Source: Actinoplanes derwentensis
GTDB taxonomy: Bacteria > Actinomycetota > Actinomycetes > Mycobacteriales > Micromonosporaceae
NCBI RefSeq assembly: GCF_900104725.1
Contig: NZ_LT629758.1
Location: forward strand, 310,001 to 374,000
Direction of reading: 5' to 3'
Length of the DNA: 64,000 nt
A program made the position numbers and the translations under genes. Shown piece after piece: positions 43,742 through 57,802 of this stretch. Position 1 is the stretch's first letter. Each line of letters opens with the position of its first letter. The notes under the pieces are model-generated. The model did no database searches, had not been told where the DNA came from, and worked only from the letters and a program-made list of their open reading frames with translations.

Positions 43742-43887
43742 CCCGGTTTCCCGGAGTGGTTTCGTCTCAAGCCGGTGGCTCCGGGTGCCGATGGCATACC
43801 GGTTTCGTGTCACCGCCCTTCCCCGGTACGTGATTTCTGGGGTGGCTGTGCTTCGATGTGCGGACATCAACTCCTGGGGAGGACGTT

Positions 43888-44634
43888 GTGGCAAGGAGAC
43901 GGGTTACCGCCCGCCTCGTCGGCACCGTGACGGCGGTGCTGGTCGGCAGCGGGATCGGCGCGTTCGCGCTGACGCCGGCGAGCGCGGCTCCGGTGACCGC
44001 TGCCGTGACCACCACGGTGGTCACCAAGGCGGCTGCCGCGTCGTGCGCGACGGGCAAGTACCAGAAGCAGGTCGAGGGCTACCTCAAGAAGCTGGGCGGG
44101 TTCGGTGCGGTGACGGTGGACGGCAAGCAGTCCGCCGCCGACTGTGCCGCGATCGTGAAGTTCCAGAAGCGTTACGGGATCCAGCCCGCGAAGGGCCTGG
44201 CCGGCCCGACCACGGTCGACGTGGCGAAGCGGCTGGCGTCGACGAAGACGGCGGCCTGCAAGGCCAAGAAGTCGGGCACCACCTTCTGTGTCAACCTGAC
44301 TCAGCAGACCAGCTGGGTCATGAAGAACGGCAAGGTGCTCTACAAGCCCACCATCGTCCGGACCGGGTACGAGGGGTACCGGACGCCGGCGGGCACCTAC
44401 AAGATCAACAAGCGGACGAAGAAGGAATGGTCCGACCCGTACGAGGTGTGGCTGCCGTACTGGCAGCGTTTCATCGGCGGGATCGGGTTCCACCAGACCA
44501 CGACCTACATCCACGACAAGTGGCGCGGGTCGCACGGCTGCGTGAACCTTCTCCAGGCCGATGCCAAGGCGTACTACAGCGTCGGCAAGATCGGTATGAC
44601 GGTGAAGACGTTCGGGCGCCGTCCCGGCACCTGA
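43888..44634 (+). CDS. Secreted L,D-transpeptidase (YkuD)
   Basis: 248 residues from GTG 43888 with GGGGAGG five to six bases upstream. A signal peptide ends near SAAPV; an N-terminal peptidoglycan-binding-like domain (about 60-125, KYQKQVEGYL, GIQPAKGLAGPTTVDVAKRL) precedes the YkuD domain with the catalytic Cys in GSHGCVNL and an upstream His in GFHQTTTYIH. It forms 3-3 crosslinks in peptidoglycan or attaches proteins. Ends before a strong hairpin. Confidence 0.92.
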   Translation: MARRRVTARLVGTVTAVLVGSGIGAFALTPASAAPVTAAVTTTVVTKAAAASCATGKYQKQVEGYLKKLGGFGAVTVDGKQSAADCAAIVKFQKRYGIQPAKGLAGPTTVDVAKRLASTKTAACKAKKSGTTFCVNLTQQTSWVMKNGKVLYKPTIVRTGYEGYRTPAGTYKINKRTKKEWSDPYEVWLPYWQRFIGGIGFHQTTTYIHDKWRGSHGCVNLLQADAKAYYSVGKIGMTVKTFGRRPGT

Positions 44635-44803: not shown

Positions 44804-46132
44804 GTGGCCACTGTGCATCGCAGCCGCTCACGTGCAGTGATCATCGCCGGTGTCGTGCTCCTGGCATCGCAGACCGCCGTCTCGTGCGACGAGGAGACCA
44901 GCGCGGTCCGGCTGGGTAACGCCGAGGTCGCGACGATCGACGAGATCGTCGAGGCGCCCGGCACGGTGACCGCGCGGACCGCCGCCACCCTCACCGCGCC
45001 GGCCGCCGGCACGCTGGGTGAACTCCACGCCGAGCCGGGGCAGCGGGTCCGTAAGGGCGACGTGCTCGCCGTCATCGACTCGCCCGACCTGACCCGCCGC
45101 CGCGACGCCGCCCGCGAGGCCCTCGCCCAGCTGCCCTCCGGCTCGCCGGCCGGCATCGGCGGGATCTCCGAGTTCACCGCCGTCCGCCGGCGCACCGACG
45201 AACAGGCGGCGAAAGCCTTCGAACAGGCCCGCGAGTCCGCCGCCGCGATCGCCGACCCACAGGTCCGTAAAGCCCTGCTGGACCAGGTCGGCGCCGCCGA
45301 AGCCGGCTACCGGACCGCCTCGTCGGCGTCGGCCGCCGCCCTGCGGTCGGTGCAGAGCGGCGTCGCCTCCCTGGGCCGGGCGATGGGCTCGCTCTCCGCG
45401 GCGCAACGGCTGCAGGCCGAGCAGGCGTACGAGCTGGCCGACGCCGCCGTCGACGCCCTCACCCTGCGCGCCCCGGTCGACGGCGTGGTGCAGCTCGGCG
45501 GCCCGGCCCAGCCCGCCTCCGGGGGTTCCCTCGCCGGGCTGCTGGCGGGCGGCCAGGCCCCGGCGGTGGCCGGCGGTGCCGTCGCGGGCGTGGACCCGGC
45601 GGTACCCGAAGGCGGCTACCTGGCGGCCGGGACCCCGGTGGTGACCGTCGTCGACACCGGCCGTCTCGGGCTGACCGCCGAGGTCGACGAGACCGACGTG
45701 CTGCTCGTCGGCGACGGCATCGGCGCCGACATCGAACTCGACGCGGCACCCGGAGCGGTGTTCACCGCGAAGGTCCGGTCGGTCGACCTGCTGCCCACCA
45801 CCTCGGCCCGCGGCGGCGTCTCCTACCAGGTGCGCCTCGACCTGGGCCCGCTGGAAAAAGGATCACCGACCCCTCGGCCCGGGATGAGCGCGATCATCCG
45901 GCTCAAGGTGCGCCAGGCGGCCGACGCGATCACCGTGCCCGCCTCGGCGATCGTCAGCACCGGCGGCCGGGAGAGCGTCTGGACCGTGCGCGCCGGGCGC
46001 TACGAGGCGGTTCCGGTCCGGCTCGGGGTGCAGGGCGAGGACACCGTGCAGATCACCTCCGGGGTGAACGCGGGGGAGCGGGTCGTGATCGCCGGAGCCG
46101 ACCAGGTCACCGCCGGTGCGGAGGCGCCGTGA
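44804..46132 (+). CDS. HlyD/MacA-type efflux adaptor
   Basis: 442 residues from GTG 44804 (GTG 44813 is an alternative). An N-terminal hydrophobic segment ends in a Cys (TAVSC), so it may be a lipoprotein. Then a lipoyl-like motif APAAGTLGELHAEPGQRVRKGDVLAVID (read in parts), an alpha-helical hairpin, a second lipoyl half with LRAPVDGVVQLGG, and a beta-barrel. Such adaptors link a membrane ABC transporter to the outer wall. Overlaps the ATPase gene by four bases (GTGA). Confidence 0.9.
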   Translation: MATVHRSRSRAVIIAGVVLLASQTAVSCDEETSAVRLGNAEVATIDEIVEAPGTVTARTAATLTAPAAGTLGELHAEPGQRVRKGDVLAVIDSPDLTRRRDAAREALAQLPSGSPAGIGGISEFTAVRRRTDEQAAKAFEQARESAAAIADPQVRKALLDQVGAAEAGYRTASSASAAALRSVQSGVASLGRAMGSLSAAQRLQAEQAYELADAAVDALTLRAPVDGVVQLGGPAQPASGGSLAGLLAGGQAPAVAGGAVAGVDPAVPEGGYLAAGTPVVTVVDTGRLGLTAEVDETDVLLVGDGIGADIELDAAPGAVFTAKVRSVDLLPTTSARGGVSYQVRLDLGPLEKGSPTPRPGMSAIIRLKVRQAADAITVPASAIVSTGGRESVWTVRAGRYEAVPVRLGVQGEDTVQITSGVNAGERVVIAGADQVTAGAEAP

Positions 46133-46803
46133 GCGCCATCGTCGCCACCGACGTCAGCCGGACCTACGAACTCGACGGCGTCTCGGTGCAGGCCCTGCGT
46201 GGGGTGTCACTGACCGTCGAACCCGGCGACTACCTGGCCATCATCGGCACCTCCGGCTCCGGCAAGTCCACCCTGATGCACCTACTCGGCGGCCTGGACC
46301 GGCCCACCGGCGGAACCCTGCTGATCGGCGGGCGCGACGTCTCCCGGCTCACCCCGAACGAGATGGCCGAACTGCGCAACACCACCATCGGATTCGTCTT
46401 CCAGTCGTTCCACCTGCTCGCCCGCACCACCGCCCAGGACAACGTCGGCCTGCCCCTGGTCTACCGCGGCGCCGGCCGCCGGGAACGCCGCGAACGCGCC
46501 ACCGCCATGCTGGACCGCGTCGGCCTCGGCCACCGGATCACCCACCGGCCCAACCAGATGTCCGGCGGCGAGCAACAGCGCGTCGCCATCGCCCGTGCCC
46601 TGGTCACCGGCCCGTCCGTGCTGCTCGCCGACGAACCCACCGGCAACCTCGACTCGGCCACCGGTTCCGACGTCCTGGGACTGCTGGAGACGCTGGTCGC
46701 CGACGGGGTAGCCGTCGTCCTGGTCACCCACGACCGGGAGGTCGCGGCCCGCGCCCACCGGCAGATCCGGATGAAGGACGGGCTGATCGTTGAGACTCGC
46801 TGA
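46129..46803 (+). CDS. MacB-type ABC ATP-binding protein
   Basis: 224 residues: Walker A GTSGSGKST, FVFQSFHLLART, signature MSGGEQQRVAIA, Walker [20 protein letters not shown]. Middle gene of an adaptor-ATPase-permease set; GTG start at 46129 overlaps the adaptor stop. Confidence 0.95.
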   Translation: MSAIVATDVSRTYELDGVSVQALRGVSLTVEPGDYLAIIGTSGSGKSTLMHLLGGLDRPTGGTLLIGGRDVSRLTPNEMAELRNTTIGFVFQSFHLLARTTAQDNVGLPLVYRGAGRRERRERATAMLDRVGLGHRITHRPNQMSGGEQQRVAIARALVTGPSVLLADEPTGNLDSATGSDVLGLLETLVADGVAVVLVTHDREVAARAHRQIRMKDGLIVETR

Positions 46804-47974
46804 AGCCTGGCGGGTCGCTCTCGACGCGCTACGCGCCAACCGGCTCCGCAGCATGCTCACCATGCTCGGCGTCATCATCGGGGTGGCCGCCGTGGTCGCT
46901 CTCGTCGCCATCGGCACCGGCACCAAACAGCAGATCGAGAACCAGGTCGAAGGCCTCGGCTCCAACCTGCTGATCGTCGTCCCCGGCCGCCTCGAAGCCG
47001 GTGCCGCGCCCACCTCGTCACCGCTCACCCTGGACGACGTCGACGTGGTCAACCGGGTCGTCGGCGACCGCAGCCGGGTCGCGGTCACCATCTCCTCCGG
47101 CGAGACGATCCGGGCCGGCCGCCGCAGCGGATACGCCAGCATGCAGGGCGTCTTCGAAACCACCCCGACGGTCTTCGTCCGACGGCTCGACCGGGGCGCC
47201 TACTTCACCCGCACCGACGTCAACACCGGCCGCCGGGTCGCCGTCCTCGGTGCCGGAGTGGCCGGCGACCTGTTCGGCGACCGTGACCCGATCGGCCGGC
47301 AGATCACCATCGGCGGAGTCCGGTTCCGGGTCGTCGGCGTCTTCGAACAACTCGGCCAGAGCCTCGGCGTCGACCGCGACGGCGAGGTCCACGTGCCGGT
47401 CACCGCCGCCCAGCGCCTGCTCGGCACCGAACGCATCGACGGCCTCGCCATCCGCGCCCCCGACCGGGAACGCATCGGCGAACTCTCCGCGGCGGTCGTC
47501 GCCGCCCTGGCCGAACGGCACCCCGACACCGACTTCTCCGCCGTCACCCAGGAACAGATCCTCGGCGTGCTCGGCGACATCCTCGGCGTCCTCACCGGGG
47601 TCCTGGCCGCCATCGCCGGCATCAGCCTGCTGGTCGGCGGCGTCGGCGTCTCCAACATCATGCTGGTCTCGGTCCGCGAACGCACCAAGGAGATCGGGCT
47701 GCGCAAAGCCGTCGGTGCCCGCCCCCGCGACATCGGCGTCCAGTTCCTCCTGGAAGCGGTACTGCTCACCACCACCGGCGGCGTCCTCGGCATGGCCCTC
47801 GGCGCCGGCACGGCGTTCCTGGTGGACCGGCTGACCCCGGTCCCCGCAGCCATCACCTGGTGGTCGATGACCCTGGCCTTCGGCGTCTCCGCGGCCGTCG
47901 GCATCGTCTTCGGCGTCGTCCCCGCTCAGCGGGCCGGCCGCCTCGACCCGGTCGTCGCGCTGCGGACTGAATAG
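46790..47974 (+). CDS. MacB-type ABC permease
   Basis: 394 residues: helix 1 (LTMLGVIIGVAAVVALVAIG), a periplasmic MacB_PCD loop (about 45-260), then three helices (about 265-385) including MLVSVRERTKEIGLRKAVGA. With the adaptor and ATPase it forms a MacAB-like exporter of peptides or macrolides. TTG start at 46790 inside the ATPase end. Stops at TAG 47972 within a hairpin. Confidence 0.93.
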   Translation: MRLAEAWRVALDALRANRLRSMLTMLGVIIGVAAVVALVAIGTGTKQQIENQVEGLGSNLLIVVPGRLEAGAAPTSSPLTLDDVDVVNRVVGDRSRVAVTISSGETIRAGRRSGYASMQGVFETTPTVFVRRLDRGAYFTRTDVNTGRRVAVLGAGVAGDLFGDRDPIGRQITIGGVRFRVVGVFEQLGQSLGVDRDGEVHVPVTAAQRLLGTERIDGLAIRAPDRERIGELSAAVVAALAERHPDTDFSAVTQEQILGVLGDILGVLTGVLAAIAGISLLVGGVGVSNIMLVSVRERTKEIGLRKAVGARPRDIGVQFLLEAVLLTTTGGVLGMALGAGTAFLVDRLTPVPAAITWWSMTLAFGVSAAVGIVFGVVPAQRAGRLDPVVALRTE

Positions 47975-47989
47975 CGTTGTTCAGTCCGC
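47962..47989. terminator. Bidirectional terminator
   Basis: GCGGACTGAA and TTCAGTCCGC form a perfect 10-bp stem with an 8-base loop containing the permease stop codon. It lies just before the stop of the convergent giant gene, so serves both. Confidence 0.75.
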
Positions 47990-47990
47990 G

Positions 47991-50900
47991 TCAACCGCCC
48001 TGCTTTCCGGTGAGAGGGGCCAAGATCTCCGGAGACCTGCGGGGGTACGGACCCCAACCGTCCCGCAGCACGTGGATGTAGACGGCCTCGAGACAGACCC
48101 CGATCCGTTCGACCAGGTCGCTGTCCTCCTGCGAACCCAGCCGGATCGCCCGCGCGAAATGATCCAGGGCTTCCATGTGCCGCCCCTGATCGAAACAGCT
48201 CCGTCCGGCGTTCTCGTGCACCACACTGCGTACCGCCGGAGCCACCTCGGCCTCCACCGCCCGCTGGAACAGCCGGTCCGCCTCCATGTGGTCGCCCCGC
48301 AACCGCAGTACATGCGCCAACTCGGCCTGCGCGATCACCTGCGACTGCAGATCCTGCGCCGACTCGGCGTGCGCCAGCGCCAGCCGGCTCGCCGCGGCCG
48401 CCATCCCCAACTCCCCGAGCAGGCGGTACACCTCGGCCCGCACACTGAGCAGCCCCGCCTTGACGATGTTGTCGGCCTCGTCGGTCAGCGGGCCGTCCAG
48501 GCGCTCACCCAGCGCCCGCAGAGCGTCCCGGTCATCGACGACCTCACGCAGGGTCCCCCCGTCCAGCCGCCACCGGATCGCGGAGAGATCATCGGCGGTC
48601 AGTGGCAGATGCGGCGCCAGTTCCGGCCCCGGCTGGTCCTTCTGTCCCCGTTGTCCCGGCTGTCCCGGCCGTGGGGAGTCGGCCTTTCCGGCAGTGGTCT
48701 CGTTCTGTTCCTTGTGCTGACCGGTGCCGGCGGGCTGCTGCCCGGACGTGCCGTCGATCCCGGTCTCCCGGCCGTCCGCGGTATCCCGCTGCTCAGCAGT
48801 TACCGAGACATCCGCCGCGGCCCTGTCCGTGCCTGATCCGTCCGTGCGGGACTCATCCGGTGCTGACGCGGTTGCGTCCGGCCCGGTCTCGGCCGATCCG
48901 TTCGCTGCCGGGCCGGTGCCGGTCAGACCTTCAGTGATCTTCGCGGCGGTCGTCTTGGCAGCGGGCGCCCCGCCCCCGCCCTCGCCGTCACCATCGCCAC
49001 GCACCGCGCCCGGCTCGTCGTCATCCGACACCTTGGTGACGAACCAGCCACTCCCGAACGCGCTGTCCCCCGACCGTCGCGGCTCGGTAGGCCCGGAATT
49101 CTCCAGCTGAGCGATCGGCCGAAGATTGTGCAGAGTCCCGTCCGGATCCATGTAGGGCATGTCCGCCGGGAACCGCTCATCCGGCCCGGCCGGCGGCTGG
49201 CTCTCCGCCTTGCCGGCGGCTTCTGCCTTGCCCGCGGCTTCTGCTCTACCCGCGGCTTCCGGCCGTTCCTGTACGTCATCCGCAGGCGGATTCGCGGCAC
49301 TCTTGGCCCCGGCACGAGGCCAGTTGTCGATCTCCGCCCCGACACGCGGCCAACTACCGGTCCCAGCCTGAACACCGGCCGCAGCCTGCCCCGCACCCGA
49401 AGCCTCGACGCTCGCGGCCCCCGGAATCCCGGTCTGCGTAGTCCCCGAAGTCCCGGCACGCGCCCGGTCGTCCGTCGCGGGCCCGCTCTCGGCCGCCTGC
49501 CCGGGCCGGATGAGCGGGAACCCGATCTTCTCCCGCCCGGCCCCGTTCTCGCTGTCCGAGTCCCCGGACTCCGCCTTCTGCGGCCGGCCCGGTTTCGGCA
49601 GAGCGATAGTGGGCCGCTCGGTGACCGGCCTGAAGTCCGCGTCCTGCCCGTCCGTATGCCGTCCGTCTCCGGATTGTCCGTCCGCGTGCGGTTGGTCCTG
49701 GAGCCGTTCGTCCTCGAGCCGTCCGCCCGCATGCCGTCCGGTCGTGCCGGCCGGCATGCTCTCGCTCAGCCATCCGTCCAGGGTCCGGCCTTCTTCCGGC
49801 CGTCCCGAAACGGGCGCGGCCGTCGAACTGTTCTGCCCGGCCGTGGCCATGGGCTGCCGAGCATCCGGCCACGCCGCCCCCGGGGCGGGTGCCCCGGACC
49901 GGGGCATGACGCCGTCCCACACCGAACCAGCCTGCCCGGCCGAACCGTGCTGGTCTCCGCCCGAGGCGTGCGCGGGTGGCGCCGACCGGGGAGCGGTCCC
50001 AGCCTGCCCGGCGGAACCGGGCTGCTCTCCACCAGCGGCGTGGGCGGGAGGTGCCGACCGGGGAGCGGCTCCACCGGAGGTGGGCGTGACCGCGGTCCCG
50101 TCCCATCCGGTACCGGACCGCGGCATGGACCCGTGACGCCCGACACCACTCCACTCATCGGTAGGAGCGGCGTGTGCCCCACCGGCCTGACGCGCGGGCG
50201 GCGCGGACCGTGACACAGCCCCGCCCGAGGTGGGTGCCGATCCCGGCAGTCTTCCGTCCGGCGCCGGAACCGTTCCCGGCACATTCCCGCCGGAGGTGGG
50301 TGCGACCGCGCTTCCGTCCCAGCCGGTACCCGCCTGTGGCTCGGACGAGTGCCGTCCGTCCCCGCTCCAGCCGGCCTGAGGAGCGGCGTGCGCGCCTCCC
50401 CCGGACCGGGGCGTCGCCCCACCGGCGTTGTTCCCACTCCAGCCACTGCCCGACTGCGGCGCCGTTCCCGGCCCGGCAGGCGCGACGTTCCGCCCACCGT
50501 CCGGAACCGGTCCCACCTGGGGCGCGGTCTCGTTCCGTCCGACGCCTGATCCGGCGACCTGGGGTGCGGCAGTCTCCTGGAAAGGCGATGCCGATGCCGG
50601 CGTCGGTCTGTTCCATCCAGCGGCCGGTTCTTGCCGAACCACAGCCGGTTCTTGCCGAACCACAGCCGGTTCTTGCCGAGCCGCGGGCGGCCAGGCGTTC
50701 TCCGGCGCGGACGCTCCAGGCTGCGACCCTACGGCCGGACCCTGTCCCGTCGTCTGAGGGTTCTGCGCAGCGGGCGGCCAAGGCTCCACGCCCGGCCTTC
50801 CCGCTGCCAAAGGCATCCCACCCGGTGTAGGTGCCCCGCTCTGCGGCCGGTCTCCGGGCTGCACGGGCCGAGCGGCCGGCGGCCAAGCCTGTTCCGGCGC

Positions 50901-53900
50901 GGGATAGCCACCGGGCGGTCCCGCCGTGGCCGGTTGCCCCATACCGGGGTTCCACTCACCCGGAACCTGCGGCCGAGCCGGCGAAACCGGCCGAGACCCG
51001 GCCGGAGGCTGCGACGCGTCGGGAACCATCGCCCAGGGCCCGTCCCCCTCTTCCAGGAACACATGAGCGGTCCGAGGCGTCTTCCGCGAACGCTGCTGCG
51101 GAACGTCCGACCAGCCCTCACCCTGCGGAGCCCAGCCCTCATCACCACCGCGACGCCCGTCCGCCGGATGAGCCCAGCCCTCGCCGCCACCGTGACGCCC
51201 GTCCGCCGGTCCCGGATAGCCACCCGGAACACCCGGCACACGCCCGTCCTCACCGGGACGCCCACCAGCGATCTGACCGCTCTCGTTCGGCCATCCCGCT
51301 GAACCACGCCCGTCTCCACCGGCCCATCCACCGCCGACTTGGTCACCCGCACCCGGGCGAGCACCAGCCACCCGGCCATCCACACCAGCCGGCCCACCGG
51401 CCACCCGCCCATCGGCTCCGACCGGACCGCCGGGCGCGCGCCGATCGGCACCCGGAACAGTCCCGGCAGCACGGCCACCCTGGTTCGGCACACCGGCAGG
51501 GAACCCCGTACCGGCGGGCCAGCCACCACTGGAATCAGCCCGACCGTCGGGAGACGTCTCGGCCCATCCGGGTTGTTGCGGTCCGTTCGCCCCGGTCACC
51601 CGGGTCGGCGGCACCGGAGCCGGTGCGGCCAGGACACGCGGCGCAACCGGCGGCTCGGCCTTGACGACACGCGGCGCGGGAGGCGGTGCGGACTTACTGA
51701 CAACCTTCGGCTGTACGGGTGGGTCAGCGCGCCGGACCACCCTCGGCCCGTCCGCACTCGTTCCGTTGTCCGGTCCGGTGCGCCCGGTGTTGTCGCCGAC
51801 GCCGTGCGGTACCCGTCCCACGGAGCCCTCGGCCGGTTCGGCGGGCACATCGCCACCGGTGTGCCGCTGCCCGGGAACGAGCCGAGCCATGGCGGCCCGC
51901 CAGCCACCTTTGTGCCCGTCCTCGCGCTCCCCGGCCGCATGCCCCTGCTGCGTCGGATCGTGAGCCGCGGCCCCGTGCTGAACCGGCCCGTTCGAAGCCA
52001 CTCCGTGCTGAACCGGCGCCTGATAAGCACCTGGATACGCCGCTGATCCCGGCTGCTCCGGCCCACGCTGCGCGGTTCCTGGCTGCGCGGATCCGTGAGC
52101 CGCCGGCCCAGGCTGTTCCGGTCCGCGTTGTGCGGGTCCCTGTGGTGCCGACCCGTATGCCGCCGGTCCCTGCTGTGCCGGACTGTGCTCCGCCGCGCCC
52201 CGATCCGCGCCTCCGCGCAGAGCCGCGTCGCTCTCCGGCTGCCCCGTCCCGGCGTGTCCCGGCTGCGCGCGGTCGGTCGCCTCCGGCGTGCGTTCGCCAC
52301 GTTCCCACAGTTCACGGGCCGCCGCATGGTCGGCTGCCGGTGTCTCACGCCCGTTCGGTCCAGCCGGGGCGTCACTACGAGCGCCCCGGACCTCGCGAAC
52401 GTTTCCGCCCTCAGGACCACCCGGAACGACCGGAGCACCCGGAACGACCGGAGCACCCGGAACGACCGGACCACCCGGAACGACCGGAACACCCACGCGT
52501 CCTTGCGGCTTCACCGCTTCGACCGTGGGCATCTCCGGAACGTCCACCGGACGAGCCGGCGCCTCGGAGCCGGTGATCCCGCGACCGTTCGCCGCCCGTA
52601 CCGAATCGTCAGGCTTGTGACCCTCGTGGTTTCCGGCCACGGCGGGCTCGACGGCATCGCGAGCGCGGTCGCCGAGGTCGTCCGACACACGTGCCGCGAT
52701 CCCCTGGTCCCGGCCGCCGTCCACCGGCTCCGGAGCGGCGCCGCGTGAATCACGCTGACCCGGGGTCCCACGGTCGCTGTCCGGGCGCTCACCGGTACCC
52801 GGCTCGGCGAACCCGCGAACGCCCCGGCCGTCGTCCACGACCTGGTCCGCGATGGGCCCACCCGGAGTCCCGGAGGGTTCCGAACCCACACGGTCGGCAC
52901 CACCGGCGGTGACACGCCGGTCGTCCGTGCCGCGGTCCCCGACATCAGCCACCGGCCTGACACGGTCGCCAGCGTCGGCTGCGGGCCTATTGCGATCTCC
53001 TGCATCGACTACGGGCCTGCTGCGATCCCCGGCGTCCACCACAGGCCTGCTGCGGTCGCCAGCGTCGGCAGCGGGCCTGCCACGGTCCCCGGCGTCGGCG
53101 GCCGGCCGGATGTCGGGGCGGACCGGCGACGCGGTGCCGCGAACCGGCTGCGGAGTGTCGGTGCGCTGGTCGTCGGTTCCGGCGCTTCCCGGTACCTGGG
53201 CACGCCCGGTGACCGCCCGATCATCACGCCGTGCGGCGGGCCGGCGGGTGTCGGCGTCGTCGCGTCGCGGGCGCCGTCCGCCGACCGGCCGGATCGGGCC
53301 GAAGTCGTCGTCCTCCCAGGTCTGCGGAGCGCGTCCACGGTCGAACGGCGCGACGTCGCCCCGGGCGGAGCGGTCGGGCTCCTCCCAGTATTCGTCGGTA
53401 CCCAGCTCGATGGTCCGCGGCTGGTCGTCGTTACGAATCGGCTGTTCGCCGCGTTCGATGGTGCCTTCGTCGTCCCAGAGTTCGTCGGCCCCGATCTCGA
53501 CGGTGCGCCGTCCACGTCCACGGCGATCGTCCCGGCCGGGGGAGCGCCGGTCGTCGAGCTGCTCCCGCCGCTCGTCCCGCCGCTCGTCCCGGGGGTCGGC
53601 CCGATCCTCGCGGACCGGTTCCCGGCGCCCGTCGAGAACGGGTTCCCGATGGCCGTCACGGACCGGTTCCCGGCGGTCGTCGTGCGGGGCGCGCGGGTCG
53701 TACCCGGCCCAGCGCTCGTCGCTCCGGGCGGCCGGCTCGTCCCAGCGCGCGGGGGTGTCCTCCCGCGTGGTGCGGGGCTCCTCACGGCGGCGCCCGCGGC
53801 GGGACGGGGTCTCGTCCCAGCGCTCGCCGCGCCGGTCCCGGTCGTCACGGGGATCCCGGTCGTCCCGGCGGTCCCGGGCGGCGGGCAGATCCCGCAGATC

Positions 53901-54551
53901 GTCCCGGCGATCCCGGTCGTCCCGGCGACTGCGGTCGTCGCTCCGGACCCGATCATCCCGGACGTTCCGGTCGTCGACCCGGCCCCGGTCACCCCGGCGA
54001 TCCCGGTCGTCACGCCGATCCCGCAGATCGTCACGGCCCTGCAGATCGTCACGGTTCCAGACATCGCCCTGATAGCGGGCGGACGCGTACCGGTCGTCAA
54101 CACGGTCGTCAACACGGTCGTCGTCACGGCTCGAACCGGCCGTACGCTCATATCGATTGTCGCCGCGCGGCCCGGAGGCGCTGCGGCGAAGGTCCGGCCG
54201 AGCCGCCGGATCCACGATGGGGAAGTCGGGTTTGTCGAAGTCGACGCCCAGCTCGGGCCGGTTGAAGTCGATGTCGTCGAAGTCGTCGCCGACCAGGTTG
54301 TCGACGTTGGTGTCCACCGGCACGAAGTCGGGTTCGTCGAGCCAGCTGGGCCGCGCCGAGTCGAAGGAGGCTTTCCGCTGCCGCCGGGCCGCGAGCTCGT
54401 CCTCGGACATGCCGCTGCGGCCGCGCGTCGGCATGACGGCGTCCGGTACTTCACGCTTGGTGTAGTGCCGCTCCTGAATGACCGCCGAACTAGGCATGAT
54501 CGAGTACTCGTCGTACTCGTCGGCCCAGTATTCGTCGTCCTCGTAGCTCAT
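47991..54551 (-). CDS. Giant disordered repeat protein with C-terminal TPR-like domain
   Basis: 2,186 residues from ATG 54551 (the frame continues upstream without a better start). Acidic N-terminus (residues 1-130: EDDEYWADEYDEYS, DDIDFNRPELGVDFDKPDF); an R/D-rich polyampholyte (about 135-350: many RDDR and DRRD units); further D/R-rich and Pro/Gly/Ala/Gln low-complexity sequence with several repeat families (18-, 21- and 30-bp units); and a folded helical end (about 1985-2186: LAHAESAQDLQSQVIAQAE, RLFQRAVEAEV, NAGRSCFDQGRHMEALDHF) resembling TPR repeats. No signal peptide, membrane helix or catalytic motif was seen. The antisense frames are also open, an effect of high GC. Function unknown; a scaffold or condensate-forming protein is an inference. 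Confidence 0.8.
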   Translation of the reverse strand: MSYEDDEYWADEYDEYSIMPSSAVIQERHYTKREVPDAVMPTRGRSGMSEDELAARRQRKASFDSARPSWLDEPDFVPVDTNVDNLVGDDFDDIDFNRPELGVDFDKPDFPIVDPAARPDLRRSASGPRGDNRYERTAGSSRDDDRVDDRVDDRYASARYQGDVWNRDDLQGRDDLRDRRDDRDRRGDRGRVDDRNVRDDRVRSDDRSRRDDRDRRDDLRDLPAARDRRDDRDPRDDRDRRGERWDETPSRRGRRREEPRTTREDTPARWDEPAARSDERWAGYDPRAPHDDRREPVRDGHREPVLDGRREPVREDRADPRDERRDERREQLDDRRSPGRDDRRGRGRRTVEIGADELWDDEGTIERGEQPIRNDDQPRTIELGTDEYWEEPDRSARGDVAPFDRGRAPQTWEDDDFGPIRPVGGRRPRRDDADTRRPAARRDDRAVTGRAQVPGSAGTDDQRTDTPQPVRGTASPVRPDIRPAADAGDRGRPAADAGDRSRPVVDAGDRSRPVVDAGDRNRPAADAGDRVRPVADVGDRGTDDRRVTAGGADRVGSEPSGTPGGPIADQVVDDGRGVRGFAEPGTGERPDSDRGTPGQRDSRGAAPEPVDGGRDQGIAARVSDDLGDRARDAVEPAVAGNHEGHKPDDSVRAANGRGITGSEAPARPVDVPEMPTVEAVKPQGRVGVPVVPGGPVVPGAPVVPGAPVVPGGPEGGNVREVRGARSDAPAGPNGRETPAADHAAARELWERGERTPEATDRAQPGHAGTGQPESDAALRGGADRGAAEHSPAQQGPAAYGSAPQGPAQRGPEQPGPAAHGSAQPGTAQRGPEQPGSAAYPGAYQAPVQHGVASNGPVQHGAAAHDPTQQGHAAGEREDGHKGGWRAAMARLVPGQRHTGGDVPAEPAEGSVGRVPHGVGDNTGRTGPDNGTSADGPRVVRRADPPVQPKVVSKSAPPPAPRVVKAEPPVAPRVLAAPAPVPPTRVTGANGPQQPGWAETSPDGRADSSGGWPAGTGFPAGVPNQGGRAAGTVPGADRRAPGGPVGADGRVAGGPAGVDGRVAGARPGAGDQVGGGWAGGDGRGSAGWPNESGQIAGGRPGEDGRVPGVPGGYPGPADGRHGGGEGWAHPADGRRGGDEGWAPQGEGWSDVPQQRSRKTPRTAHVFLEEGDGPWAMVPDASQPPAGSRPVSPARPQVPGEWNPGMGQPATAGPPGGYPAPEQAWPPAARPVQPGDRPQSGAPTPGGMPLAAGRPGVEPWPPAAQNPQTTGQGPAVGSQPGASAPENAWPPAARQEPAVVRQEPAVVRQEPAAGWNRPTPASASPFQETAAPQVAGSGVGRNETAPQVGPVPDGGRNVAPAGPGTAPQSGSGWSGNNAGGATPRSGGGAHAAPQAGWSGDGRHSSEPQAGTGWDGSAVAPTSGGNVPGTVPAPDGRLPGSAPTSGGAVSRSAPPARQAGGAHAAPTDEWSGVGRHGSMPRSGTGWDGTAVTPTSGGAAPRSAPPAHAAGGEQPGSAGQAGTAPRSAPPAHASGGDQHGSAGQAGSVWDGVMPRSGAPAPGAAWPDARQPMATAGQNSSTAAPVSGRPEEGRTLDGWLSESMPAGTTGRHAGGRLEDERLQDQPHADGQSGDGRHTDGQDADFRPVTERPTIALPKPGRPQKAESGDSDSENGAGREKIGFPLIRPGQAAESGPATDDRARAGTSGTTQTGIPGAASVEASGAGQAAAGVQAGTGSWPRVGAEIDNWPRAGAKSAANPPADDVQERPEAAGRAEAAGKAEAAGKAESQPPAGPDERFPADMPYMDPDGTLHNLRPIAQLENSGPTEPRRSGDSAFGSGWFVTKVSDDDEPGAVRGDGDGEGGGGAPAAKTTAAKITEGLTGTGPAANGSAETGPDATASAPDESRTDGSGTDRAAADVSVTAEQRDTADGRETGIDGTSGQQPAGTGQHKEQNETTAGKADSPRPGQPGQRGQKDQPGPELAPHLPLTADDLSAIRWRLDGGTLREVVDDRDALRALGERLDGPLTDEADNIVKAGLLSVRAEVYRLLGELGMAAAASRLALAHAESAQDLQSQVIAQAELAHVLRLRGDHMEADRLFQRAVEAEVAPAVRSVVHENAGRSCFDQGRHMEALDHFARAIRLGSQEDSDLVERIGVCLEAVYIHVLRDGWGPYPRRSPEILAPLTGKQGG
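50624..50686 (-). repeat. Three 21-bp repeats in the giant gene
   Basis: CCGGTTCTTGCCGAACCACAG-type units start at 50624, 50645 and 50666 and encode RQEPAVV heptapeptides. The last unit has diverged. Confidence 0.85.
52418..52489 (-). repeat. Four 18-bp repeats in the giant gene
   Basis: Units CACCCGGAACGACCGGAG start at 52418, 52436, 52454 and 52472 and encode PVVPG[GA] hexapeptides, similar to elastin-like turns. Confidence 0.85.
52951..53100 (-). repeat. Five 30-bp repeats in the giant gene
   Basis: Five 30-bp units start at 52951, 52981, 53011, 53041 and 53071 and encode RPxxDAGDRx decapeptides. They differ at silent and coding sites. Confidence 0.85.
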
Positions 54552-54954
54552 GACGAGGCTCCGAACCGGCCGGGGGAGAACCCACCGCCCCGATGCCGCA
54601 TGGAAGCCACCGTCCTCACCCTGTACCACCTCCGCACACCGGTGCCCGCCCCTCGCGCTCCGGATCAACGCCTGCCACGTGGTGGATGTGGAAGGTTAAC
54701 CACGGATTTGCGCAGTGCGCCACCGCACCGCGGGCCCCCGTCACCGGCCGCGCGGACACTCCGCGAGCCTCGATCACACCGGCGCCGCAGTTCGCCGGAA
54801 GTACGCGATCACCCGGGTATACGTCCGGAAAGCCCTCCCGGTTCAATGGTTTGAGCAGTGACTATGACAAAGATCCCGAAGAGCCGCCGAGGCCCCCGGA
54901 ACGGCCGCTCCACCCAACGCGAACCGTCCCCGACCGGTCACGTCCCAGGTATCG

Positions 54955-54973
54955 GCTTAAGAATTTTTTAAGC
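54955..54973. promoter_or_regulatory. A/T-rich hairpin upstream of the giant gene
   Basis: GCTTAA-N7-TTAAGC surrounded by a low-GC patch (about 54950-54985) about 400 bases upstream of the giant gene start. It may be a promoter, nucleoid-protein site or terminator of a lost gene. Confidence 0.35.
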
Positions 54974-55896
54974 TTCTTTTCAGGCCAGCTAAGAACTTGC
55001 GGTTGACCCCGAACAGGTGACCCACCGTCACCCCCGTGCCCCCACTCATCCACACCCCGACTCCAGCGAACCCACCGCCACGCGTCGCCGGTCCACCACC
55101 ACAATCGGCACCGAAACGCCCGCCGAGCTCCCAGGTCGATCCCGGGGGTGGCGAAGGACACCCCCGGCATTCGCGGATCATGACAGGCGTCCCTGGCACG
55201 GTTGATGAGCGCCAGGCCCCATCCCAACCCACCCACCAAGACCGACAACCTCAAGATCAAACCCTTTTCTTGTACGGCTACCACCGCCCGCTCACCCCGC
55301 AGCCCACGCACCCCGCCCCACCCGCACGTCTCGACCACCACCTGCACGCCTCAGGCCATCCGCGCGTTGCGAGCCATCTGACCGCCTCGGATCACTCGGG
55401 TGCCTCGGATCACCTGGACGTCTCGGGCCATCTGGGCGCTGTGAACCACCCGGTCGGCGGCCGCCACCCCCCAACTCCTGGCGGTCGAATCGGACCCGAG
55501 AACACCGTGAAGGCGATCCCCCTCGCCCGTCACGGTCGGCGGATCTTGGTGCTCGGCCGGGGCCGGGAGACGGCGGCGGGAGCCCATCTCCCACCGCCGT
55601 CTCCTCCCACCGGCATCGGCCGGGTCGTCCCACGAGCGACCCCGCCGCGTGTTCCATCGAACGTTCCTGAAGGCCCCCGCCCCGAGCGCCACCCCGCCGG
55701 CGGACGAGGGGCCGCACCGTGCCCCGGAACCGCCGGCGAGACCCCCTCCTCGCAACGGTTCCGGGCGCGGTCAGGGAGGGCGCGGCAACGGAACCGGCCT
55801 TCCGTAGCCGCGCCCTCCTCACCCCCGTCAGACCTGAGCCAGTCCGTCGTGACTTCAGGCTCGTCCAACGCCGCAGCGCTGGGCCTTGCCTCTCCC

Positions 55897-56099
55897 TGAG
55901 CACCGCAACGGGAGGCACTCGGCCTTCTGAGCATCCGCCAAGGGGGGCGGTCCGGTTCCCGAGCATCCGCCAAGGGGCCGCGAACAGCCCGAAGGGACGT
56001 TCCATGTCCCGAGCATCGCGGGAGGGGCGCTCCGATTCCGGGCAACCGCCAGGGAGTATTCCAAGTCCCGGGCGCCGCCGAGGGAGCGCTCGGTTTCGG
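55897..56099. repeat. Degenerate ~30-bp tandem repeat array
   Basis: Six units, most opening with a variant of CGAGCATCCGCCAAGGG and ending in a TTC or GTC block, start at 55897, 55928, 55960, 56010, 56040 and 56069 (31, 32, 50, 30, 29 and 31 bp). The third is longer by a ~20-bp insertion. It is not a CRISPR array: no conserved repeat and unique spacer. It lies just downstream of the 56138-56575 gene. Confidence 0.6.
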
Positions 56100-56137
56100 C
56101 TGGGCAGTGGAAGTCGCCGCCTGTGGGCCGGGGTGGG

Positions 56138-56575
56138 TCAGGCGCGGCCGTCGAGGGTGAATCCGCCTACTCGGGACGGTAGGACCAGGCCGGCTGCGGC
56201 CAGGGCGCTGAGCAGGATGGACAGTTCCGCGCGGGTCAGCGTCGGGGCGCGATCCGGTTGGGGGTGGGGGACTTCGAGGGCGATGGCGGCTTCGATGGCG
56301 CACATGCCGATGGCTGTCTCGATCGCCCAGACCCGGTGGGTGCGGAGTCCGTTGTGGGCGGAGGCCGCGAGTTCGCCGTGCAGTCGTAGCAGCCGGCGCA
56401 GGTCGACGGCGAGTTGTTCGATCGGTAGTCCGTGCGGCATCGGTTCCGGGGTTCGCCGCTGTCGTCGTCGTTCGGCGGCGGTCGAGCACCAGCGTGTCAG
56501 GTAGCGGACTCCCGCCATCACCAGTCCAGCGGCGATGAGGACGAGAACGAGCCGACTGGCATCGAGGAGGGTCAC
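56138..56575 (-). CDS. Hypothetical single-pass membrane protein
   Basis: 145 residues from GTG 56575, selected because GGAGG lies eight bases upstream. One N-terminal membrane helix (LVLVLIAAGLVMAGV), an Arg-rich segment, then a soluble helical part (LPIEQLAVDLRRLLRLHGELAA) and a final winged-helix-like stretch (LTRAELSILLSALAAAGLVL). No recognised domain. Confidence 0.65.
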   Translation of the reverse strand: MTLLDASRLVLVLIAAGLVMAGVRYLTRWCSTAAERRRQRRTPEPMPHGLPIEQLAVDLRRLLRLHGELAASAHNGLRTHRVWAIETAIGMCAIEAAIALEVPHPQPDRAPTLTRAELSILLSALAAAGLVLPSRVGGFTLDGRA

Positions 56576-56730
56576 GGGTGTTTCCTCCACCAAAATATGG
56601 GTTGGTCTACCCCCGACCTTCCGCTGCCGCCCCGCCACCCGTCAACGGACTTTGTGCGACTCGGTGAACATCGCGGCGGAGCGTCCCCGAAAGCGGGATC
56701 GACCACCTGCGCCCGACGGCCCCGGGCGTC

Positions 56731-57243
56731 TCAGATGACGGCGCGGCGGGCGATTTCGAACAGGCCGCTCCGGTCGCCGAAGGTTCGGCGGACCGCCTCG
56801 CCCATCTGGGTGAACAGGGCGTCGCCGCCGAAGTCGCATTCGGTGATCGCGTTGACTTCGCCGACCAACAGGTGGACGGCGAGTTCGTCCTCGTGGCCGG
56901 TGGGCAGGTAGCCCTCGCCGGGCAGGTCGGTGCCGAAGACCCGGCCGGCCAGCCGGGCGTCACCGTCGGATGTGTCCGGTTCGGTGCCGTGCAGGTAGAG
57001 GAGTGCCGCGGTCTCCGGGCGCAGTATCCGCTGGAACACGCACGGTTCCAGGTCCTGGGTGTCGACGAGGGCTCCACCCCAGAACGGGTCGGTGACCTCG
57101 AAACCGGCGGCGGTCAGCGCGGCGGCGGCGGTACGGCCGCACGGGCCGTCGTCCCAGGTGATCACCGGGGGTATCCGCTGGTCGGCGCGGGGGTACAGGC
57201 CGGGAACGCCGGCCAGCGCCGTGAGGAGTCGGGCGGGCGTCAT
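56731..57243 (-). CDS. Hypothetical soluble protein
   Basis: 170 residues from ATG 57243. It opens TPARLLTALAGVPGLYPRAD and has a GDALFTQMGEAVRRTFGDRSGL end; no recognised domain or signal. A 15-bp direct repeat lies 40-80 bases upstream. Identity unknown; the composition looks like a genuine gene. Confidence 0.6.
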   Translation of the reverse strand: MTPARLLTALAGVPGLYPRADQRIPPVITWDDGPCGRTAAAALTAAGFEVTDPFWGGALVDTQDLEPCVFQRILRPETAALLYLHGTEPDTSDGDARLAGRVFGTDLPGEGYLPTGHEDELAVHLLVGEVNAITECDFGGDALFTQMGEAVRRTFGDRSGLFEIARRAVI

Positions 57244-57283
57244 CGGGTGATCATGGCAATCGCCCGCCGAAAGGTAAAGCGCC

Positions 57284-57324
57284 GCCGGTGAATACGAGGC
57301 CCACCGGCGGCCGGTGAATACGAG
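57284..57324. repeat. 15-bp direct repeat upstream of 56731-57243
   Basis: GCCGGTGAATACGAG occurs at 57284-57298 and 57310-57324 (26-bp period). On the minus strand these read CTCGTATTCACCGGC in front of the hypothetical gene, so they could be an operator. Confidence 0.45.
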
Positions 57325-57376
57325 ACGGTGGCCGGTGCGGGTCACGGGACTCGGGACGGACGTACCGGAAAGGAAG

Positions 57377-57802
57377 TCAGGGGTTTGGGCTCGCCGTGGT
57401 GTGCCGCAACGATGCCGATCCCAGGATCCGGGTCACCGTGACCTCGATGACGACCCGTTCCGGGTTGGGCCGGGGCACCCGGTAGCGGGCGGCGTAGCGC
57501 TGTTCCGCGTCGCCGACCGCGCCGGGGTCGTCGCGGATGACGGCGAGGCCTTCGACGGTGCTCCAGCGGGGGCCGTCGATCTGGCAGATCGCGACGCGGG
57601 TGGCACCGCGCCGCACGTTGCGGACCTTGGACGAGCCACCGGAGGTGATGATCCGGGCGATGCCGGTGCTGACGTCCAGGGTGGCGCCGACCGCGACCAC
57701 GTGGGGTGAGCCGTCGGCGCGCAGCGTGGTGAGGGTGCACAGGTGGCGTTCGGTCCAGAACTGGGCGAGCGCGGGCGAGTCGAGGGGGACGGTGCCGCTC
57801 AC
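57377..57802 (-). CDS. Pyridoxamine 5'-phosphate oxidase-fold (PPOX) protein
   Basis: 141 residues from GTG 57802 (GGAG eight bases upstream). Split-barrel flavin or F420 fold with [19 protein letters not shown], then [22 protein letters not shown] and [12 protein letters not shown]. Actinobacterial members often use F420 and reduce small molecules. It follows the DUF2252 gene by 22 bases, so it is probably co-transcribed. Confidence 0.85.

Follow-up and report, generated by a model that had tools for sequence, protein, structure and literature searches.

Does a minus-strand reading frame of 2,186 residues, most of it predicted to be disordered, encode a real protein, and what might such a protein do? 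The frame lies at 47991–54551 of the window, the 64,000-nucleotide stretch of Actinoplanes derwentensis contig NZ_LT629758.1 analyzed here, and is the largest gene that we saw in it. The source genome is a single contig of 10.65 Mb, and the frame is free of internal stops up to its terminal stop codon. An earlier reading of the same DNA (the original prediction) had described one long frame with an R/D-rich polyampholyte and a folded tail resembling a tetratricopeptide repeat (TPR) domain, and had proposed a scaffold that engages its partners through the TPR end. Our analysis adds a paralog pair, a nearly frozen TPR domain joined to a free-running N-terminal arm, ordered islands within that arm, and the truncation of the gene in public annotation. 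We give a probability of roughly 0.55 to the reading of the protein as a soluble scaffold or adaptor in the cytoplasm, with a peptide-binding TPR domain on a long, length-tolerant tether that carries docking motifs.

Conservation of the reading frame and its TPR domain

Twenty orthologous loci were fetched, drawn from 67 Actinoplanes genomes. In the window, as at 19 of the 20 loci, the frame starts with MS[FY]EDDEYW, and at those 19 loci it runs unbroken from this motif to the TPR end over 1,373–2,509 codons. At one locus (L054, genome G202) the N-terminal motif and the TPR end are in different frames, the result of a sequencing error or of a broken gene; it was excluded, leaving a set of 19 orthologs. 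The deepest window-type sequence, from Spirilliplanes (L073), has a frame of 1,028 codons without the N-terminal motif.

Selection on the coding sequence was estimated as the ratio of nonsynonymous to synonymous substitution rates (dN/dS; NG86 method) between the window gene and seven relatives in six regions. The ratio is 0.07–0.16 for the TPR domain, 0.21–0.37 for residues 1–125, 0.10–0.60 for three further islands (residues 935–985, 1145–1195 and 1795–1840) and 0.35–1.07 for the R/D tract, the highest among the six; the most diverged relative, L065, supplies the top value in all four region classes. Within the arm, substitutions concentrate at the third codon position (for example, 128/133/273 by position against L053). 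Two observations weigh against a long coding frame. Codon use is odd in the arm, where the GC content at third positions is only 0.67–0.83 in blocks covering residues 151–1980, and our own codon-use gene caller shortened the gene to 346 codons and placed a plus-strand gene inside it. Even so, the pattern of sequence conservation indicates that the minus-strand frame at 47991–54551 is a real, translated gene. The single long frame of the original prediction is borne out by the open frame and start and by dN/dS values below 1 in the TPR domain and islands, and homologs that begin at the same ATG do exist.

The gene has fared poorly in annotation. At least two public records shorten this branch, to 210 (P0208) and 282 residues (P0167), and both match inside intact frames, of 1,924 codons (L058) and 1,428 codons (L062), respectively. 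In these two records, the only ones for which annotation and intact frame were compared, gene callers have removed the disordered arm, and the length of a database entry should therefore not be taken to show that a gene is short. Among the shorter open frames of our genome survey, those in G152, G158, G186, G188, G226 and G258 reach a contig end and that in G218 is masked; the remaining ones, in G182, G212 and G222, have 1,201–1,321 codons.

The TPR domain comprises residues 1985–2176 (48024–48599, minus strand) and was assigned by Pfam, AlphaFold2, fold comparisons and a profile run against Protein Data Bank sequences. AlphaFold2 models the last 209 residues with a mean predicted local distance difference test score of 89.5, as seven main helices making up about three and a half repeats, and the predicted structure is a stack of antiparallel TPR-type helix pairs, in agreement with the folded tail first proposed. 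A database search of the tail did find TPR_12 (E=9.1e-6), at a score of 26.2 bits that falls below the Pfam cut-off of 30.1; relatives such as P0003–P0007 do carry PF13424. Mean identity between the window protein and the 19 orthologs is 0.70–0.91 in TPR blocks and 0.02–0.3 in spacer blocks. Among named species, Actinoplanes couchii (94% identity; outside our tree), A. philippinensis and A. xinjiangensis (both 93%) have the most similar TPR domains. Judged by these comparisons, the domain is nearly frozen in evolution.

A WG-bearing paralog

The TPR domain occurs once more in the source genome, at 5.8 Mb (E=1.9e-43, 49% identity), in a frame of 2,086 codons that has WG repeats C-terminal to the TPR. 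This paralog, which the original prediction missed along with the conserved islands and the usual, non-efflux neighbor described below, corresponds to L090 6503–12760; its arm holds three tandem tryptophan-rich units of the GGLSEADWGKAWSDWQ.FGG type. The WG-repeat family PF14903 was tested for and is present in L090 and L151, and a Pfam search found none in the window protein. All 19 WG-type loci that we fetched (L074–L092, the copy from the source genome included) have an extension of 222–242 residues beyond the TPR. Proteins of this kind, annotated in Micromonosporaceae as 'WG repeat-containing protein' (PF14903 plus TPR), resemble the window protein in having a long low-complexity N-terminal arm and a homologous TPR domain (46–52% identity to six WG-type sequences), but differ in their WG part of ~240 residues and in their locus. 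WG-type genes are accompanied by MurA-like (17/19), CobU-like and CobS-like (both 19/19) and GcvT-like (14/19) genes, these names being our own reading of the sequences at loci of which some end early. PF14903 appears in a repeat-modelling table in the excerpted text of PMC8078820; no study of this family was among the matches listed in literature searches for WG repeats or for Actinoplanes together with tetratricopeptide.

The family is widespread in Micromonosporaceae, with a TPR-domain match in 294 of 300 sampled genomes. Both the window type and the WG type occur in all 67 Actinoplanes genomes; the WG copy matches over TPR and WG in one piece in 63 of these and is shorter or split in G152, G184, G218 and G228. 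Beyond the family, the TPR domain matched in 17 of 296 genomes of the phylum, of which two are in fact family members and the other 15 gave weak matches (E 1e-6 to 8e-4), and a WG–TPR profile matched in 10 of 246 genomes of the class (three family members, two genomes with free-standing TPR proteins, one matching by WG repeats alone and four weak matches). The free-standing actinobacterial TPR proteins of ~170 residues (e.g. P0238 from Phytoactinopolyspora) share the TLREV and LAHVL...EAD motifs with the window protein but lack the arm and the DGWGPYPR tail. Two such proteins from another actinobacterial family, L206 and L208, with open frames of 171 and 187 amino acids, are apparent relatives; L208 is 31–35% identical to the Micromonosporaceae domains.

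A tree of 79 TPR sequences (29 window type, 30 Actinoplanes WG type, 17 other WG type and three outgroup) places the window type and the Actinoplanes WG type each on one side of a branch, with support of 100/100. The window type is nested among WG types, by branches that are weak (68–79% bootstrap) in an analysis whose bootstrap had not settled and whose outgroup is distant. The window gene is thus, as judged from its TPR domain, a paralog of the WG–TPR protein, and the simplest reading would be a duplication within Micromonosporaceae followed by loss of the WG part. N-terminal profiles of the two types, with 16 of 19 WG loci used, fail to match (hhalign probability 0.23%), and shared ancestry of the motifs RPSWLDEP and EPSWxxEP in the two paralogs is unsupported. 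With its nearly frozen TPR domain, its natural variation in length and a WG-bearing paralog throughout the Actinoplanes genomes searched, the gene offers a good test case for the evolution of bacterial disordered scaffolds.

The arm and the scaffold reading

From its N- to its C-terminus (all coordinates on the minus strand), the arm begins with a conserved acidic segment, residues 1–125 (54177–54551), recognized from alignment islands and its dN/dS and containing MSYEDDEYW..., RPSWLDEPDF and DFNRPELGVDFDKPDFP. A fast-evolving R/D-rich polyampholyte of nearly neutral net charge follows at residues 126–440 (53232–54176), and within residues 340–431 (53259–53534) lie the acidic motifs DELWDD, DEYWEE and WEDDDFGPIRP, present in many but not all orthologs. 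Next come repeats, among them a 30-base tandem repeat of ~4.8 copies (52963–53107); Tandem Repeats Finder returned 15 rows for the gene, some of them covering one array. A conserved proline-rich island of the PPVAPRV type (residues 935–985, 51597–51749) precedes the island VPQQRSRKTPRTAHVFLEEGDGPWAMVPD (residues 1145–1195, 50967–51119; ...AHVFLEEGDGPWAMVPD), a G/P/A/S-rich spacer, the island PYMDPDGTLHNLRPIAQL...GWF (residues 1795–1840, 49032–49169; PYMDPDGTLHNL...GWF), a charged spacer and the TPR domain. The alignments indicate that the arm diverges freely outside the acidic islands near the N-terminus and the three islands further in.

The disorder call for the arm is one of composition only: mean TOP-IDP is 0.13–0.32 across 20 arm blocks as against 0.08–0.12 in TPR blocks, and the charge–hydropathy test classes 12 of the 20 arm blocks as disordered and six as not, with two tied. 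No membrane-like stretch was found in the window protein, in which the highest 19-residue Kyte–Doolittle mean is 1.27 (the usual membrane threshold is ~1.6), and no enzyme domain was found, as the original prediction had maintained.

We could imagine the arm having no function, as a repeat-prone extension that is tolerated while only the TPR end matters. The repeats themselves, a mean identity below 0.2 to the 19 orthologs over much of the arm, the existence of related free-standing TPR proteins of ~170 residues and the Spirilliplanes protein without the N-terminal motif would all fit, but the ordered islands have dN/dS below 1 (0.21–0.37 at the N-terminus) and all 19 intact orthologs have at least 1,373 residues, and we regard this explanation as improbable.

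The scaffold reading is the account that we prefer, and the most economical one. The gene would have arisen through duplication and loss of the WG part; the groove of the near-frozen TPR solenoid would accommodate a peptide ligand; the arm of ~1,980 residues would be a tether whose length and repeats are of little weight; and its short conserved islands (acidic W/Y/F/L motifs near the N-terminus, the proline-rich island and two more) would dock other proteins, so that the scaffold brings partners together. Of the original proposal, the gene and the TPR fold have been borne out, and the scaffold role with a partner-binding TPR is plausible.

The polyampholyte has been given a different weight. 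The original prediction pointed out that such tracts often drive phase separation and bind nucleic acid; our analysis does not support the tract as a functional core. Alternatively to a plain tether, the polyampholytic, low-complexity arm might demix and concentrate clients that the TPR domain recruits. The length and low complexity of the arm and its net charge, close to zero in each of the 20 sequences (−0.010 to −0.037 per residue), argue for such a condensate, as does the Caulobacter scaffold PodJ, which has a disordered region and phase separates in vitro according to the excerpted text of PMC8980812. PodJ resembles the window protein in combining a disordered region and a TPR in one polypeptide (same excerpt). 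It differs in its coiled coils, its membrane anchor and the periplasmic location of its TPR, which is accompanied by a peptidoglycan-binding domain; in the window protein, neither a membrane stretch nor a peptidoglycan-binding domain was found. A blocky charge pattern is usually tied to demixing in polyampholyte theory, but the R/D charges of the window protein are slightly better mixed than those of shuffled sequences (0.058 versus 0.084, standard deviation (sd) 0.014, ~1.8 sd). The tract is also loosely constrained. Where both borders could be located (11 of 20 sequences), its length varies over 174–415 residues, and in the other nine sequences the R+D fraction over residues 101–400 is 0.22–0.39. 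We consider a condensate unlikely. With the highest dN/dS of the regions tested, variable length and slightly better mixed charges than in shuffles, the tract gained no support for either idea, nothing points to nucleic-acid binding, and the emphasis placed on it was probably misplaced.

A second alternative draws on the kinesin light chain, a eukaryotic motor subunit whose TPR solenoid takes up tryptophan-acidic cargo at the concave surface, freeing the chain's own LFP motif, as described in the excerpted text of PMC6224480. By analogy, the TPR groove of the window protein may bind the acidic W/F/L motifs of its own arm, either within one chain (a closed, autoinhibited form) or between copies (a network), until a competing partner displaces them. 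Foldseek ranks the kinesin light chain first for the TPR model, and large hydrophobic residues are enriched in acidic surroundings near the N-terminus. Summed over the window protein and its 19 orthologs and compared with shuffles, tryptophan occurs there 96 times as against 41.2 expected (sd 5.8) in residues 1–460 and 76 as against 33.4 in residues 21–460. Enrichment in the whole arms of WG-type proteins, a different stretch, is found in only 4 of 19 loci, which also favors this idea. Tryptophan is not special, however: in residues 21–460 phenylalanine (118 versus 46.0) and leucine (106 versus 58.7) behave in the same way, with valine and histidine near expectation, so the signal is one of large hydrophobics in acidic surroundings and not a tryptophan code, and these controls rule out a tryptophan-specific motif. 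Taken alone, 12 of the 20 sequences reach P<0.05 for tryptophan in residues 1–460 (13 in separate shuffles) and nine in residues 21–460, and the orthologs are not independent. Furthermore, acidic residues outnumber basic ones in the TPR domain (23 K+R, 31 D+E), and VIA-align places kinesin chains below several other TPRs. The kinesin light chain has six TPRs, to about three and a half in the window model, and shows no evidence of homology to the window protein beyond the repeat. Kinesin light chains also contain a heavy-chain-binding coiled coil. The motif result leaves kinesin-like self-binding a weak candidate, and we think it doubtful. An elaboration, which we hold to be still less probable, would have the TPR clamp grip acidic–aromatic motifs at the far end of like arms in a self-linking scaffold, with the mesh of the resulting cytoplasmic network set by the variable spacer; such a protein would have arisen in the Actinoplanes lineage when a WG beta domain was swapped for motif clusters.

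Neighboring genes

The window gene stands alone in our own gene calls, as first described, and no operon was seen: on the same strand, nothing lies immediately downstream, and the nearest upstream gene is 1.6 kb away. No sigma-70-like promoter was found in 47900–56200, where a single terminator-like site is within chance, and no Rfam match at the gathering score was found in 47000–57500, so a functional RNA near the gene was not found. HlyD-type adaptor, ABC ATPase and MacB-type permease genes (44804–47974, plus strand) converge on the gene across a gap of 16 bases. These are neighbors and not part of the system; the convergent efflux operon of the original prediction holds for the window, but in 17 of the 20 fetched loci the gene directly past the stop is another one; the member that was read contains a GGDEF motif.

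A small upstream gene of 166 amino acids without a Pfam or NCBIfam match (56138–56638, minus strand) occurs in 15 of the 20 fetched loci. Five loci lack it, and at three of those that have it (L065, L066 and L071) its orientation is reversed; as an operon partner it was rejected and kept as a lead only. A single query against 91 family genomes found it in three of five Actinoplanes, in Spirilliplanes and in none of 85 others; in G056 it lies ~0.5 Mb from the ortholog. Its product has a hydrophobic N-terminal stretch. An L,D-transpeptidase (YkuD) gene adjoins the efflux set (43858–44634, plus strand) and is found in 18 of the 20 fetched loci; it has a peptidoglycan-binding match below threshold.
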